A stretch of 64,000 nucleotides of DNA, from NCBI GenBank assembly GCA_902761585.1, contig CACWKX010000006.1:62001-126000 (forward strand). The letters are read 5' to 3'. Position 1 is the stretch's first letter; the number at the start of each line of letters is the position of its first letter. The notes below the pieces were generated by a model. It was not told the origin of the DNA and ran no database searches. It was given only the letters and a program-made list of their open reading frames with translations. The translations under genes were made by a program, and so were the position numbers. Origin of the DNA: an uncultured Lachnospiraceae bacterium (GTDB lineage Bacteria; Bacillota; Clostridia; Lachnospirales; Lachnospiraceae). Below, in pieces: positions 2,328 to 45,785 of this stretch.

Positions 2328-2591
2328 TTACTGGAAATCGACCTCCGTCCCGTCATCCTCCAGCGCCCGGACCTGTTTGTCCACAAGACTGATCCGCTTC
2401 TCCGCCTCCTTCAGAAGGGTATCTCCCTCCTTATAGAGAGCAAAGGCATCCTCCAGGCCTGTCTCCGGATTCTCCATCTTTTTTGTGATTTCCTCAAGTC
2501 GGCTGAAGATCTGCTCCAGCGTCATTCCATCTGCCGTTTCCCCTGCCTGGCTCTGGTCCATCTTCCGGTCTTCCTGTCCCTTCTCCGCCAT
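2328..2591 (-). CDS. xseB: Exodeoxyribonuclease VII small subunit
   Basis: Small subunit that assembles in several copies on XseA to form the single-strand DNA exonuclease ExoVII. The protein is about 87 aa. The conserved core runs through LEQIFSRLEEITKKMENP and GLEDAFALYKEGDTLLKEAE, the helical hairpin of the family. Two starts are possible. The ATG at 2591 has GGGAGG four bases upstream. An ATG at 2615 would add eight residues (MKMHMGGS) with a weaker site. It lies 50 nt downstream of xseA, its usual partner. Confidence 0.9.
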   Translation of the reverse strand: MAEKGQEDRKMDQSQAGETADGMTLEQIFSRLEEITKKMENPETGLEDAFALYKEGDTLLKEAEKRISLVDKQVRALEDDGTEVDFQ

Positions 2592-2641
2592 CGATCCTCC
2601 CATATGCATCTTCACCCGAAACGCTCCCTGTTTGTCCCCCT

Positions 2642-4000
2642 TTATTTTGTGGACTGAGGCTGGAGTCCTTCCGGCCGGATCTGCTGTACCGTTGCGTCCA
2701 GACTTCCATCCTTGAGCGTAATGTTCAAAAGCTCTCCCCGTACAAGCGAGGATACCGACTGAACAGCCCTTCCTCTGCTGTCGGCAACAAAGGCATAGCC
2801 GCGGTTCAGATGGTCCTGCGGGGAGAGCATCCGTACCTTTGCCTCCAGTACCTTGTATCTGCCTTCCGTCCCCTGAAGCCGCTGCCGCATCGCTGCCTTC
2901 AGCGGCGGCACCGCCATCCGAAGCTGATTTTCCGTTTCCCGGATCTTTGTCTTCATCCTAAGATCAAGATTCAGAGCTCGCACGGCCTCCCGCGCACTGT
3001 CGACTCTGGCCCGGCAGGCATTTGTCATCCGCTCCTGCAGGTTCTCGAGCTGCATCATCCGTTCTCTGAGCCGGCCTGCCGGACCCTTCGCCTGCAGACG
3101 AAGCCGGTATCCCTCCGCTTCTCTCCGGACATACGCACACTTCTGCATCATCTGATTTCTGAGCCGGACCCTGTCCTGCTCAATGCCAGCCCGAATGGAA
3201 ACCATGTCATCTACAGCGAGTTCTGCGGCCGCCGAGGGCGTCGGTGCCCTCAGATCCGCGACATAGTCCGCAATGGTGAAATCCGTCTCATGTCCGACCG
3301 CAGAAATGATCGGCGTCGAGGCATTGAAGATTGCCTCTGCGACGACCCGCTCATTGAATGCCCACAGGTCCTCGATGCTGCCTCCGCCGCGGCCGACGAT
3401 GATAGTGTCAACATGATGGCTGTCGAGCAGCCGGATTCCCCTAGCGACGCTCTGTGACGCCCCTTCACCCTGAACAAGCGCCGGGTAAAGCAGGATCTCG
3501 ATCCCGGGGTTGCGCCGTTTAGACACGTTGATGATATCCCGTACCGCCGCTCCGGTCGGTGCCGTGACAACGCCGAGCCTTTTGATATAGTGTGGAATCG
3601 GCTTCTTGTACATCTGGTCAAACATGCCCATATCCGACAGCTCGCTTTTTAACGCCTCAAAGCGCTCGTACAGCACCCCGATTCCGTCCAGCCGGATCGC
3701 CGATGCGTACAGCTGATAGCTTCCACCCTTCTCGTAGACGCCCATGCTTCCGAAGACAATGACCTTCTGACCATCCTCCAGCCGGAAATTCAGCTTCTTC
3801 CGGTTTCCGGCAAACATAATGCAGTTTACCTGTGCCAGCTCGTCCTTCAAAGAGAAATAGATGTGCCCGGAGGAATGATACTTGCAGTTCGAGATCTCCC
3901 CCTTGACGTAAATTCGTGTCAGGAAGGGATCAGCCGAGAACATCTGATGAATGTAGCTGTTGACCTGGGCGACTGTGTAGACAGATCGCTGCGTGCTCAT
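2642..4000 (-). CDS. xseA: Exodeoxyribonuclease VII large subunit
   Basis: Catalytic subunit of ExoVII (452 aa), which degrades single-stranded DNA in both directions. An N-terminal OB-fold (roughly residues 1-100, YVKGEISNCKYHSSGHIYFSLKD) is followed by the nuclease domain with GAAVRDI and the signature IIVGRGGGSIEDLWAFN, then HETDFTIADYVADLRAPTPSAAAE. A long helical region and a C-terminal domain complete a normal length. The ATG overlaps the nusB stop by four bases (ATGA), showing translational coupling. xseB follows directly. Confidence 0.97.
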   Translation of the reverse strand: MSTQRSVYTVAQVNSYIHQMFSADPFLTRIYVKGEISNCKYHSSGHIYFSLKDELAQVNCIMFAGNRKKLNFRLEDGQKVIVFGSMGVYEKGGSYQLYASAIRLDGIGVLYERFEALKSELSDMGMFDQMYKKPIPHYIKRLGVVTAPTGAAVRDIINVSKRRNPGIEILLYPALVQGEGASQSVARGIRLLDSHHVDTIIVGRGGGSIEDLWAFNERVVAEAIFNASTPIISAVGHETDFTIADYVADLRAPTPSAAAELAVDDMVSIRAGIEQDRVRLRNQMMQKCAYVRREAEGYRLRLQAKGPAGRLRERMMQLENLQERMTNACRARVDSAREAVRALNLDLRMKTKIRETENQLRMAVPPLKAAMRQRLQGTEGRYKVLEAKVRMLSPQDHLNRGYAFVADSRGRAVQSVSSLVRGELLNITLKDGSLDATVQQIRPEGLQPQSTK

Positions 4001-4470
4001 CCGTTCTTCTGGCGCTGGATCTTTGCGAGGATCCCATTGACAAAGGACGAGGAATCATCCCCGCCGAACTTCTTTGCAAGCAGCACGGCCTCATTGATCG
4101 CCACACCTGCCGGAATATTCTCGTCAAAGAGGAGCTCGTATACCGCAACTCTCAGGATGCAGAGGTCGGTTCTGGCCATACGTCCGGTCTTCCATCCGGT
4201 CGAGGTTTCATCCAGAATCCGGTCAATCTCCGGTACCTTCGCGCAGACCTCCAGCGCCCGCTGGCGGACCTCATCCTGGTCCTGCGGCTGCACCTCGCAG
4301 GGCGGAAATTCCAGCTCCTCACCACTCTCATGTGTGAAGTACAGGTCAATCTGCTCTGAAACAGCCGCCTCATCCGGCCACATATACGGGGCATCCTGTC
4401 TGTGAGACCGCAGAAATTCACAGGCAAACAGAATCCGGAACACATGCTCTCTCAGTTCTCTTCTGGTCAT
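3997..4470 (-). CDS. nusB: Transcription antitermination factor NusB
   Basis: RNA-binding helical protein (157 aa) that joins NusE/S10 at boxA during rRNA antitermination. Family hallmarks are the N-terminal MTRRELREHVFRILF and the C-terminal RTDLCILRVAVYELLFDENIPAGVAINEAVLLAKKFG, ending with SFVNGILAKI. The start at MTRRELR is supported by GGGAG six bases upstream; a longer open frame to 4542 lacks family similarity. It overlaps xseA by four bases and follows the Asp23 gene, a usual Clostridia order. Confidence 0.96.
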   Translation of the reverse strand: MTRRELREHVFRILFACEFLRSHRQDAPYMWPDEAAVSEQIDLYFTHESGEELEFPPCEVQPQDQDEVRQRALEVCAKVPEIDRILDETSTGWKTGRMARTDLCILRVAVYELLFDENIPAGVAINEAVLLAKKFGGDDSSSFVNGILAKIQRQKNG

Positions 4471-4592
4471 AAAAATCTCCCTGTACAGAAAAAGCCATTG
4501 CATGAACACCTCTCCCGACCGGGACCACCAGTATCTCTGCAACAGCCTCTGCTGTGTCTTATGATGATATGAAAGGTACGATAATGATGCTG

Positions 4593-5003
4593 TTATTCCT
4601 TCTCGGCAGACTGCTGGGACTTGCCGACGACAATCGAAGCGACACGGATATTGACCTCTCCCACCGAGAGCCCGGTCATGGTCTCGATCGCGGTCTTGAC
4701 CCTGTCCTGTACCTTCGCGCAGGTTTCCGGAACATTGTAGCCGTAGCGCACATTCACAGACAGTGTGACATTCGCCTGCCCGTCTGCATCGACGGACAGC
4801 TTCACGCCCTTGCCGATGCTCTTGATTCCAAGCTTCGAGATGACGTCCCTCGTGACGTTCCCGCCCAGAGAGGCAACACCCTTCACATCTGACGCCGCAA
4901 GCCCTGCAATGATCGCAACCACATCATCCGCGATCTTTACGACACCCTCGCAGCCGTCTGTATGCATCGTTATGGTATTGATATGAGCTGTTTCAGAAGA
5001 CAT
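4593..5003 (-). CDS. Asp23/Gls24 family envelope stress protein
   Basis: Small Asp23/Gls24 domain protein (136 aa), a Bacillota family linked to the cell envelope and alkaline or envelope stress; the molecular role is unsettled. The visible core is GVVKIADDVVAIIAGLAASDVKGVASLGG, then GVKLSVDADGQANVTLSVNVRYG and the VQDRVKTAIETMTGLSV helix. GGGAGG seven bases before MSSETAH fixes the start. It is the first gene of the operon reading into nusB-xseA-xseB-ispA-dxs. A promoter (TTGCAA, 17 nt, TAGAAT) lies about 45 nt upstream of the start. Confidence 0.92.
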   Translation of the reverse strand: MSSETAHINTITMHTDGCEGVVKIADDVVAIIAGLAASDVKGVASLGGNVTRDVISKLGIKSIGKGVKLSVDADGQANVTLSVNVRYGYNVPETCAKVQDRVKTAIETMTGLSVGEVNIRVASIVVGKSQQSAEKE

Positions 5004-5043
5004 GTGACAACCTCCCTGATGATCCTCAGACTTATTTATACCG

Positions 5044-5072
5044 ATTCTATTACAAAGAAGGGTTGTTTGCAA
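5044..5072 (-). promoter_or_regulatory. Promoter of the Asp23-nusB-xseAB-ispA-dxs operon
   Basis: A -35 TTGCAA (5067-5072) and -10 TAGAAT (5044-5049) are separated by exactly 17 nt on the minus strand, about 40 nt before the Asp23 start. This is read directly and fits a housekeeping sigma-A site. Confidence 0.6.
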
Positions 5073-5124
5073 CCGCCGCCGTCAAACACCTGCAGATTCG
5101 GCGGATTTCGCAAAATGACTGCCG

Positions 5125-6714
5125 TTACCGGGCGAATTCCGCCAGCTTCAGCTTCGGATTACGCTCCTCGACCATGCCAACCGACCAGCTGTTCACAAAC
5201 AGAAGCAGCGGACGTCCCTTCAGATCCACAATCCGCTTCATATCAGAGGTTCCGGTAATCTTCTCCGGCGCAACCTCCTCCGGGTTCTCGATCCAGCGGA
5301 TATACTCGTACGGCAGATCCTCCATACGGATCTCCACGTTGTACTCATTCTCAAGGCGATACTTCAGGACATCAAACTGCAGCATGCCGACGACGCCGAC
5401 GATGGTCTCCTCGAGACTGCCGTTCGGCTCCTCGAAGATCTGGATGGCACCCTCCTGGGCGATCTGCGTCATACCCTTGACAAACTGCTTCCGCTTCATG
5501 GTATCCATCGGCCTGACACGCGCAAAATGTTCCGGCGCGAAAGTCGGAATTCCTTCATATGTAAACTTATGTCCCGGCATGCAGACTGTATCTCCAATCG
5601 AGAAAATGCCCGGATCGAAGACCCCGATGATGTCGCCCGCATATGCTTCGCTGACCACGTGTCTGGAGGACGCCATCATCTGCTGCGGCTGCGACAGCCG
5701 CAGCGTGCGCTTTCCCTGCACATGATAGACTTCCTTGTCCGCCTCGAACTTTCCGGAACAGATGCGCATGAAGGCGATTCTGTCACGGTGCATCTTGTTC
5801 ATGTTCGCCTGAATCTTGAACACGAAGGCTGAGAACGGCTCCTTCACCGGGTCAATCGTGCCGCAGTCCGCCTCGCGGGCAAGCGGCGGCATCGTCATCT
5901 CCAGGAAATAGTTCAGGAAAATCTCGACGCCGAAATTTGTAAGCGCAGATCCGAAGAACACCGGGCTCAGCTCTCCCTTTGACACCTTCTCCTGGTCAAA
6001 TGCGGCGGAGGCGCCGTCGAGAAGCTCGATCTCCTCCTCCAGCTTTTCCTGCGCATCCTGCCCGATGAAACTTGTCAGCTTCGGGTCATCAACCTCATAG
6101 ATGGTTTCCGTCCCTTCCTTCGTTCCCTTCTCCGTCCCGGAATAGGTCACGACATGTCTGCCTCTTCTGTCGTAGACACCCTTGAAATTCTTTCCAGACC
6201 CGATCGGCCAGTTGATCGGGCAGGTGGCGATTCCAAGCTCCGTCTCGATGTCATCGAGCAGATCGAAGGTATCCCGTGCATCGCGGTCCATCTTGTTGAT
6301 GAATGTAAAGATGGGGATGTGCCTCATGACGCAGACCTTGAACAGCTTTCTTGTCTGGGCCTCGACGCCCTTGGACGCATCGATGACCATGACTGCCGAG
6401 TCTGCCGCCATCAGTGTCCGGTAGGTATCCTCCGAGAAGTCCTGATGTCCCGGTGTATCCAGAATATTGATGCAGAATCCCTTGTATGGAAACTGAAGAA
6501 CAGAGCTGGTCACGGAGATTCCTCGCTGCTTCTCGATGTCCATCCAGTCGGAGACTGCATGGCGTGCCGTCGCCTTCCCCTTCACGGAGCCGGCAAGGTT
6601 GATCGCCCCTCCGTACAGCAGGAACTTCTCCGTCAGGGTTGTCTTTCCGGCATCCGGATGGGAGATGATTGCAAAGGTTCTTCTTTTCTCAATTTCCGTT
6701 CTCAGGTCACTCAC
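5125..6714 (-). CDS. prfC: Peptide chain release factor 3
   Basis: GTPase that recycles RF1/RF2 from the ribosome after termination (529 aa). G-domain motifs in order: P-loop SHPDAGKTT near residues 18-26, the switch-I region with SDWMDIEKQRGISVTSS, DTPGHQDFSEDT (G3), NKMDRDARD (G4). An EF-Tu-like domain II and the RF3 C-terminal domain follow. I choose the GTG at 6714, giving MSDLRTEIEKRR. It has GGGAG six bases upstream and matches usual RF3 N-termini; an ATG at 6732 would add six residues without a good ribosome site. Transcription is monocistronic from a promoter at 6857-6885. Confidence 0.96.
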   Translation of the reverse strand: MSDLRTEIEKRRTFAIISHPDAGKTTLTEKFLLYGGAINLAGSVKGKATARHAVSDWMDIEKQRGISVTSSVLQFPYKGFCINILDTPGHQDFSEDTYRTLMAADSAVMVIDASKGVEAQTRKLFKVCVMRHIPIFTFINKMDRDARDTFDLLDDIETELGIATCPINWPIGSGKNFKGVYDRRGRHVVTYSGTEKGTKEGTETIYEVDDPKLTSFIGQDAQEKLEEEIELLDGASAAFDQEKVSKGELSPVFFGSALTNFGVEIFLNYFLEMTMPPLAREADCGTIDPVKEPFSAFVFKIQANMNKMHRDRIAFMRICSGKFEADKEVYHVQGKRTLRLSQPQQMMASSRHVVSEAYAGDIIGVFDPGIFSIGDTVCMPGHKFTYEGIPTFAPEHFARVRPMDTMKRKQFVKGMTQIAQEGAIQIFEEPNGSLEETIVGVVGMLQFDVLKYRLENEYNVEIRMEDLPYEYIRWIENPEEVAPEKITGTSDMKRIVDLKGRPLLLFVNSWSVGMVEERNPKLKLAEFAR

Positions 6715-6856: not shown

Positions 6857-6885
6857 ATTCTATCAGCAATGCCGTGGGCTGTCAA
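6857..6885 (-). promoter_or_regulatory. prfC promoter
   Basis: TTGACA (6880-6885) and TAGAAT (6857-6862) are 17 nt apart on the minus strand, just beyond the small-RNA terminator and about 140 nt before the prfC start. This indicates prfC transcription independent of the upstream unit. Confidence 0.65.
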
Positions 6886-6894
6886 CAAACCTAA

Positions 6895-6939
6895 GACAAA
6901 AGAAAAAGGGACATCGACAACTTCTCTCGATGTCCCTTT
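6895..6939 (-). terminator. Terminator ending the small-RNA candidate
   Basis: A 13-bp perfect stem pairs 6905-6917 with 6927-6939 around a nine-base loop. On the minus strand it is followed by TTTTTCTTTTG. This is a strong intrinsic terminator. Confidence 0.85.
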
Positions 6940-7063
6940 CACTGATGAATCGGTTCAGTTCCCATTGGAGGGTACCTGCCTTTCTCAGATTTCTCCTTCT
7001 TTCCGGAGAGCTGCCTCCTGATCGTTGGAGGCTTTTAAGAAGAACCTCTTTTGTTTTCTTCTT
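6895..7063 (-). ncRNA. Candidate small RNA of unknown family
   Basis: A roughly 165-nt unit is bounded by a near-consensus promoter (TTGACA, 17 nt, TATGAT at 7070-7098) and an intrinsic terminator at 6895-6939. It holds no plausible open frame. Local hairpins are visible: an 8-bp AAGAAGAA/TTCTTCTT stem near the 5' end, GCCTCC/GGAGGC, CTCC/GGAG and CCC/GGG. Purine-rich patches (AAGAGG, GGAGGC, AAGGAG) alternate with pyrimidine patches. It does not show T-box, SRP or tmRNA signatures. A 6S-like role or an unknown regulator are both possible. prfC has its own promoter, so this is unlikely to be simply its leader. Confidence 0.55.
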
Positions 7064-7069
7064 GTCTGT

Positions 7070-7098
7070 ATCATAGCAGTGTGAACCGTTTTTGTCAA
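7070..7098 (-). promoter_or_regulatory. Strong promoter of the small-RNA candidate
   Basis: TTGACA (7093-7098), a 17-nt spacer and TATGAT (7070-7075) on the minus strand. Five of six -10 bases and all -35 bases match the sigma-A consensus. Confidence 0.75.
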
Positions 7099-30869: not shown

Positions 30870-30952
30870 TGCCGGTGGTGGGACTTGAACCCACACGCAG
30901 TTTCCTGCCGCAGATTTTGAGTCTGCTTCGTCTGCCATTCCGACACACCGGC
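30870..30952 (-). tRNA. tRNA-Leu (anticodon CAA)
   Basis: An 83-nt class II tRNA. The acceptor GCCGGTG pairs with CACCGGC, leaving A as discriminator; CCA is not encoded. The anticodon stem GCAGA/TCTGC encloses CTCAAAA, giving anticodon CAA (reads UUG). A long variable arm and the GGTTCAAGTCC T-loop region confirm Leu type. Confidence 0.97.
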
Positions 30953-45434: not shown

Positions 45435-45776
45435 GGGGTAGTAAAGGTTTCGACGGGGGCTGTGAAGCTGGAGAAGCTATCCGCAGGGCGATGCGTCAAA
45501 TCCCAACCTAAATATAAACGCTGATAACAACGTTGAACTCGCTGCAGCCTGACGGCTGCAACTGCCTGATCTGAAGCACCTGCACTGCAGACTCAGGTAT
45601 CGAACTTGCAGGAAACGACTTATGCAAAGCTTTGAGCATATGGGCGTATCATGAAGCTACTGAAACCGCAAGGGTGTCTGTTCCCGTGCGGCAGAGGGAA
45701 TGTCAATAGACAGACTACGATAGTAGAAGGACAGGGGATTGGCTTTCGGACACGAGTTCGACTCTCGTCTACTCCA
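45435..45776 (+). ncRNA. ssrA: Transfer-messenger RNA (tmRNA)
   Basis: About 342 nt. The 5' acceptor strand GGGGTAG pairs (one G-U) with CTACTCC at the 3' end, followed by discriminator A; CCA is not encoded. The AAAGGTTTCGACGGGGG block near the 5' end and the GAGTTCGACTCTC T-arm near the 3' end are diagnostic. The tag frame reads GCT at 45520 to a TGA at 45550-45552, giving A-D-N-N-V-E-L-A-A-A. With the tRNA-borne alanine this is a typical degradation tag ending in alanines. smpB lies about 0.7 kb away on the other strand. Confidence 0.97.
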
Positions 45777-45785
45777 CTCATTATG

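Follow-up and report, generated by a model that had tools for sequence, protein, structure and literature searches.

The small RNA predicted beside prfC in the window (the whole 64,000-nt stretch of Lachnospiraceae DNA that we analyzed) is, with good support from sequence comparison, one copy of a large uncatalogued RNA family. The RNA appears to be a kind of small translated RNA, and we predict its gene in at least one third of Lachnospiraceae genomes. The family presents what appears to be a novel combination: its ribosome-binding motifs recur with a fixed spacer, its minigenes span 2-14 codons, and its stop codon is locked to the terminator. It would tie translation to what becomes of a small RNA. 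We give an even chance to the reading that it is independently transcribed and works by ribosome docking. A conserved RNA gene of a dominant gut family appears to be unannotated and missing from Rfam. A blind spot is involved: ORFs of 5-8 codons fall below the limit of every gene finder, and linear motifs escape structure-based RNA searches.

The RNA locus beside prfC

All features of the RNA locus lie on the minus strand, and its neighbors encode RF3 (prfC) and a protein of the amino-acid-kinase family that would fit carbamate kinase. The promoter P1 (7070-7098) consists of TTGACA, beginning at 7098, a 17-nt spacer and TATGAT, ending at 7070, and matches 11 of 12 consensus positions. Its -10 box is extended, with TG preceding TATGAT (TGCTATGAT), and relatives carry, at the corresponding position, TTGACAAA and boxes like TATAAT. 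The predicted transcript of ~165 nt (6896-7063) is supported by sequence, fold and orthologues, the latter 96% and 77% identical to it; its start is an estimate placed 7 nt past the -10 box. At its 3' end is an intrinsic terminator (6896-6936), recognized by sequence, fold and a hairpin scan, in which the stem GGGACATCGA/TCGATGTCCC is followed by TTTTTCTTTTGT. The 10-bp GC-containing core of the stem at 6936-6908 grows to 14-16 pairs with the flanking A-U, and in the relatives L003, L008 and L011 the stem has changed in sequence yet is still paired.

An earlier note on this DNA had described a near-perfect promoter and an intrinsic terminator around ~165 nt, and both were borne out on the minus strand, the promoter as near-consensus and the terminator as strong. 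It had also given prfC its own promoter past the terminator. A promoter-like site, P2, does lie outside the RNA and just beyond the terminator (minus strand, 6857-6885; TTGACA from 6885, 17 nt, TAGAAT to 6857), and it is conserved in L003, L008 and L011. Promoter-like sites by themselves occur at chance frequency in this region (4 found versus 3.5 expected), so it is conservation, and not the motif counts, that argues for a real RNA feature. Conservation in related genomes had been proposed as a check, and we found it widely in the Lachnospiraceae.

The fold of the predicted transcript is stabler than that of 200 shuffles (z -4.4), with the terminator supplying much of the difference. Hairpin 1 of the predicted fold (minus strand, 7013-7032) has the form GCCTCC aacgatca GGAGGC, so that Shine-Dalgarno-like GGAGG pairs with CCTCC. 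The same place in L003 is occupied by GATCCTC aaagatcc GAGGATC, which amounts to compensatory changes. Hairpin 2 (minus strand, 6992-7009), predicted from TCTCC/GGAGA and present in L003 too, contains the Shine-Dalgarno-like patch AAGGAGA. The purine patches of this type that the note had pointed out are real, and they are what marks the family. A proposed pairing of 5'-ACAAAAGA with TCTTTTGT fared worse: it is not kept as a specific pairing in L003 and resembles A-rich against U-rich sequence.

Downstream of the hairpins is the family core motif CTGAGAAAGGCAGGTACCCTCCAATGGGA (minus strand, 6954-6987), which matches the model R1 described below with 23.3 bits (E 1.1e-4). It is made up of an extended Shine-Dalgarno sequence, a conserved spacer and a start codon, and its computed duplex with the 16S tail has an energy of -13.2 kcal/mol. 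The window RNA has this single core motif, whose start codon is ATG.

Size and distribution of the family

The core shared across the family is AGGTAC..TCCAATGGG. An exact search for promoter plus core in 84,980 species returned 16 loci, of which 14 are in Lachnospiraceae-type genomes, one is in a Clostridia bacterium (L054) and one is a chance match within a gene. A looser promoter-plus-core pattern gave 37 matches in 33 of 397 Lachnospiraceae genomes, versus 4 for the reversed pattern. We then used R1, a sequence model of 37 nt that was derived from 44 copies of the motif. At E<=0.01 it matches in 221 of the 397 genomes (~4 expected by chance), a count to be read as an upper bound since weak R1 matches include ordinary ribosome-binding sites, for example that of secD. 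Because weak matches found throughout one genus are the secD ribosome-binding site, we also give the stricter count at E<=1e-4, ~137 of 397 genomes by hand. The true number of family genomes lies between ~137 and 221 of 397, as the window copy itself scores only 1.1e-4. Outside the Lachnospiraceae, R1 matches in 19 of ~281 genomes, ~7% of Clostridia genomes; a few other Clostridia families hold strong members with the family architecture, and the occurrence there is sporadic.

In six species of the genus with the secD matches (L157-L162, at about locus position 1500) the secD ribosome-binding site reads GAGGAACAGACCAATG and contains the family's conserved spacer, which may serve these bacteria more generally as an element of strong initiation.

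The note had recognized no known family, and this agrees with Rfam 15, which has no match within this RNA, at gathering score or at permissive E-values; elsewhere in the window the permissive thresholds added only miRNA and snoRNA matches at chance level. Across the RNA in relatives Rfam likewise gave nothing, its matches being to separate neighboring features; among these are Clostridiales-1 RNAs (RF01699) in L063 (1234-1356) and L075 (1892-2058), at most ~300 nt upstream of two family members. The sole gathering-level matches in the window are a tmRNA gene (45435-45779, plus strand) and a tRNA gene (30870-30952, minus strand). We rejected 6S RNA as an identity, the 6S RNA of this genome (RF00013) being at another locus (C1:163474-163659). 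To our knowledge, the architecture set out below is unlike that of any named RNA family. As far as the literature was searched, no report of such a family was found, and the main text of two Breaker-lab surveys (PMC11109978, PMC8632094) does not mention the Lachnospiraceae.

A phage origin was also considered and rejected. Of five matches in viral contigs only L099 is real, and it sits at a prophage border beside host DNA; the others are chance matches in genes. The border in L099 (9199-11000) is of the tyrosine-recombinase type and lies directly upstream of the family member, and could make the RNA gene a marker of an attachment site.

Family architecture

Comparison of the members establishes their common parts. 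A strong promoter of the form TTGACAAA..17..TATAAT is followed by a purine-rich 5' end, like ACAACAAAAAGAAAGAG, and by one to seven copies of (CTAAGAAAG)GAGGTACRGWCCA, each continued by a start codon (ATG) or by a CCR-type sequence. Copies with a start codon often open an ORF of one to three codons (ATG AAA TAG, ATG GGA TAG, ATG AGA AAG TAA), and the start-less copies in relatives have the form ACCACCR-NNNNNN-TAA. Some members have a long variable middle. The 3' end of the RNA is formed by a terminal mini-ORF of 5-14 codons and then the terminator.

The motif is an extended Shine-Dalgarno sequence whose duplexes with the 16S tail mostly have energies of about -10 to -15 kcal/mol. Strong anti-Shine-Dalgarno sites number 140 in 56 RNAs versus 74 +/- 6 in shuffles, a roughly twofold enrichment that is partly circular because the motif served as the search key for members. 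Folding the core as a hairpin (GGU-ACRG-ACC) suits the ACC-type copies and fails for the ATG-type copies (GGU..UCC), and the core was therefore treated as a linear motif. A possible pairing of the whole core with the 16S tail, extending past the Shine-Dalgarno part (GWCC with GG(A)UC, one bulge), is no more than suggestive.

Individual loci show how far the arrangement can be extended. A single RNA in L103 holds seven motif copies. L111 has two RNA genes in tandem, and both are complete from the promoter through the motifs and the terminal mini-ORF to the terminator. The long members from other Clostridia families (L133-L148) share a ACACGRCGGTGT hairpin, a long-range helix TTCGCCTTTTG...GCAAAAGGCAGAC and TTCTC..TAGAGAA; members in these families end in the peptide MLDIKSEQK. 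A second long subtype (L041, L047, L050, L053, L056, L062) has the long-range complementarity CAATATGAGAGTGGTA...CATATTGAATA..TACCAC. A long-subtype copy in L039 lies between aconitase-like and rluA-like genes.

The terminal mini-ORF and its stop codon

The earlier note had seen no plausible open frame in the RNA. An 8-codon ORF is nevertheless present at 6939-6965 (minus strand) behind the Shine-Dalgarno site AGGTACCCTCC, and it is conserved in orthologues. It reads ATG GGA ACT GAA CCG ATT CAT CAG TGA (MGTEPIHQ*), with the in-frame stop 2 nt from the computed start of the terminator stem. The orthologous peptides upstream of prfC are MGTEPIHE, MGSLKYHQ and MGSLKKHQ. Their genes differ by CAT/CAC, ACT/ACG and TTG/TTA changes and by TGA/TAA stop swaps, and each has eight codons and ends at the stem despite the altered stem sequence.

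The position of the stop was examined across the family with one automatic rule, which takes a start codon with a Shine-Dalgarno site at most 48 nt from the stem. The sample comprised 60 members with a recognizable terminator, 3 of which had no qualifying start, leaving 57 distinct sequences. The first in-frame stop lies at most 10 nt from the stem start in 55 of the 57 (55 of 60 when all members with a terminator are counted). In the other two frames of the same 57 sequences a stop falls near the stem in 11 and 20 cases. Among other terminator-like hairpins at the same loci, 11 of 157 qualify, and some of these 11 may themselves be unrecognized members. From this comparison we conclude that selection acts on where the stop lies with respect to the terminator.

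In 71 pairs of related mini-ORFs the differences at codon positions 1, 2 and 3 number 53, 52 and 142, in pairs picked at 60% or higher amino-acid identity, which favors synonymous changes. The interchange of start codons (ATG 45, TTG 13, GTG 2) and of stop codons (TAA 26, TAG 19, TGA 15) does not depend on selecting pairs by amino-acid similarity. Given both the third-position bias and the free swapping of starts and stops, the mini-ORF is very probably translated. Certain peptides recur within clades (MDSIV/MDEIV/MDSEV, MKLLEIH, MIEPxx, MLDIKSEQK). Family-wide the peptide sequence is not conserved, and it can be as short as five residues.

Genomic context and alternative explanations

The adjacency to prfC invites the explanation that the RNA is a cis attenuator of this gene, in which a ribosome slowed at the stop of the mini-ORF, for instance when RF3 is low, would cover the stem, causing read-through and induction of prfC. 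prfC encodes RF3, it lies directly downstream and co-oriented in genomes G000, G005, G004 and G008, and a stop that abuts the terminator is the geometry that ribosome-dependent antitermination needs. The adjacency holds only in part of the genus, however. In G001 the RNA is 96% identical and is parted from prfC by an ABC-transporter cassette of ~4 kb, and elsewhere the RNA stands before diverse genes (purC, plsX, aroA, radical SAM, GH3, MFS, spoIIIAA, iPGM, gltX and others). Of 55 downstream genes, 37 are co-oriented and 18 are convergent. A leader peptide would be expected at a constant, co-oriented site directly upstream of the gene it controls, and the family does not occupy such a site; moreover, prfC has the conserved promoter past the terminator. 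We consider attenuation of prfC rather unlikely. Because the downstream genes vary, a third of them are convergent, and 4 kb separate RNA and prfC in G001, the RNA gene is, judged by its context, a stand-alone gene and not a prfC leader, and its position beside prfC is probably incidental. The earlier note's reading as an independent small RNA is supported by the varied contexts and the insertion in G001. A non-coding character is not supported, because the RNA has a conserved mini-ORF that is very probably translated.

Two further explanations keep the stand-alone gene and place its function elsewhere. An ordinary base-pairing regulatory RNA or sRNA sponge, with AGGAGG patches that pair with C-rich loops or targets and an ORF that is a side effect, would suit the purine-rich single-stranded patches, the stand-alone location and the variable middle; it leaves unexplained the conservation of the frame at the terminator in 55 of 57 distinct ORFs, and we hold it to be unlikely. 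The RNA could instead be the mRNA of a functional micropeptide of 5-14 mostly acidic residues, with its RNA features merely securing high translation. The bias toward synonymous changes, the exchangeable start and stop codons and the recurrence of peptides within clades agree with this. A peptide that is not conserved across the family and can shrink to five residues does not, and a peptide function would leave unexplained why the stop always lies at the terminator and why some motif copies lack a start. In our judgment the micropeptide is distinctly improbable. Sequestration of CsrA by repeated GGA motifs, in the manner of CsrB, draws on the several GGA motifs of the RNA, some within hairpins. 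The search for CsrA (PF02599) found none in the genome of the window (98% complete) and did detect it in the controls, E. coli, B. subtilis and T. maritima; we regard this idea as almost certainly wrong.

The G001 cassette (L034, Porcincola intestinalis, 2459-6300, minus strand), which is missing from the window's genome, encodes an ABC transporter ATPase, two membrane proteins and secreted proteins, and resembles a locus for bacteriocin/lantibiotic immunity or export.

Comparison with known systems

Dual-function small RNAs such as SgrS/SgrT, SR1/SR1P and RNAIII have known trans targets. The family resembles them in having a promoter and terminator of its own, as read from the sequence, and a short ORF, but ORFs of the SgrS/SR1/RNAIII type are longer and are not locked to the terminator. 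Minigenes of the lambda bar type are phage-borne. They find a parallel in the internal copies, where strong Shine-Dalgarno sites precede ORFs of two to three codons, whereas the family is chromosomal, conserved across genera and equipped with a separate terminal ORF. Clostridiales-1 (RF01699) and skipping-rope (RF02924) RNAs show no sequence or structure match and are separate segments of the same loci; like the family, they are stand-alone orphan RNAs, the bacteria that carry them are the same, and at times they lie close to a family member.

Leader-peptide attenuators and arrest peptides include trp, tnaC and ermC. In another Firmicute, the uORF of the S. aureus rbf leader provides an example of extended Shine-Dalgarno pairing and tiny regulatory uORFs (PMC13009471). 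Common to these systems and the family is a very short ORF placed beside a hairpin or terminator, so that a ribosome could govern how this structure folds. The family differs in having no constant downstream gene, with a third convergent, in placing the stop of the ORF at the stem itself, and in often having several ribosome-binding motifs.

STAB-SD, the 5' stabilizer of Bacillus thuringiensis cry3A, binds the 30S subunit without initiating and blocks RNase J1 (PMC4113751). The family likewise has, in a Gram-positive transcript, a strong Shine-Dalgarno sequence toward the 5' end, complementary to the 3' end of 16S rRNA, and many internal family copies (GGAGGTACRGACCACC) are without a start codon. 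STAB-SD belongs to the 5' UTR of a protein-coding gene, whereas the family motif is found in repeated copies within a stand-alone RNA, has a fixed spacer and is combined with a terminal mini-ORF at the terminator.

A proposed mechanism

Ribosome docking is favored on the basis of the extended Shine-Dalgarno pairing, the likeness to STAB-SD and the documented tiny uORFs. By analogy with STAB-SD, the RNA would be shielded by a 30S subunit, or by an initiating ribosome, sitting on its 5' motif or motifs, and a ribosome that translates the terminal mini-ORF would halt at the foot of the terminator hairpin. The supply of free ribosomes would thereby set the folding, the lifetime and the trans activity of the RNA, the latter exerted either by way of the variable middle or because the RNA holds ribosomes; we infer the docking and lifetime step from the analogy. 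A bolder version, which we think doubtful, is that this RNA class captures ribosomes, senses or buffers the free 30S subunits in this way, and acts as a global regulator of translation. Here the tandem, super-strong initiation sites, some start-less and some leading to minigenes of 2-3 codons, would serve the capture, and the terminal mini-ORF would park a ribosome on the terminator. In the window's species, additional Shine-Dalgarno-like patches are buried in the two predicted upstream hairpins.
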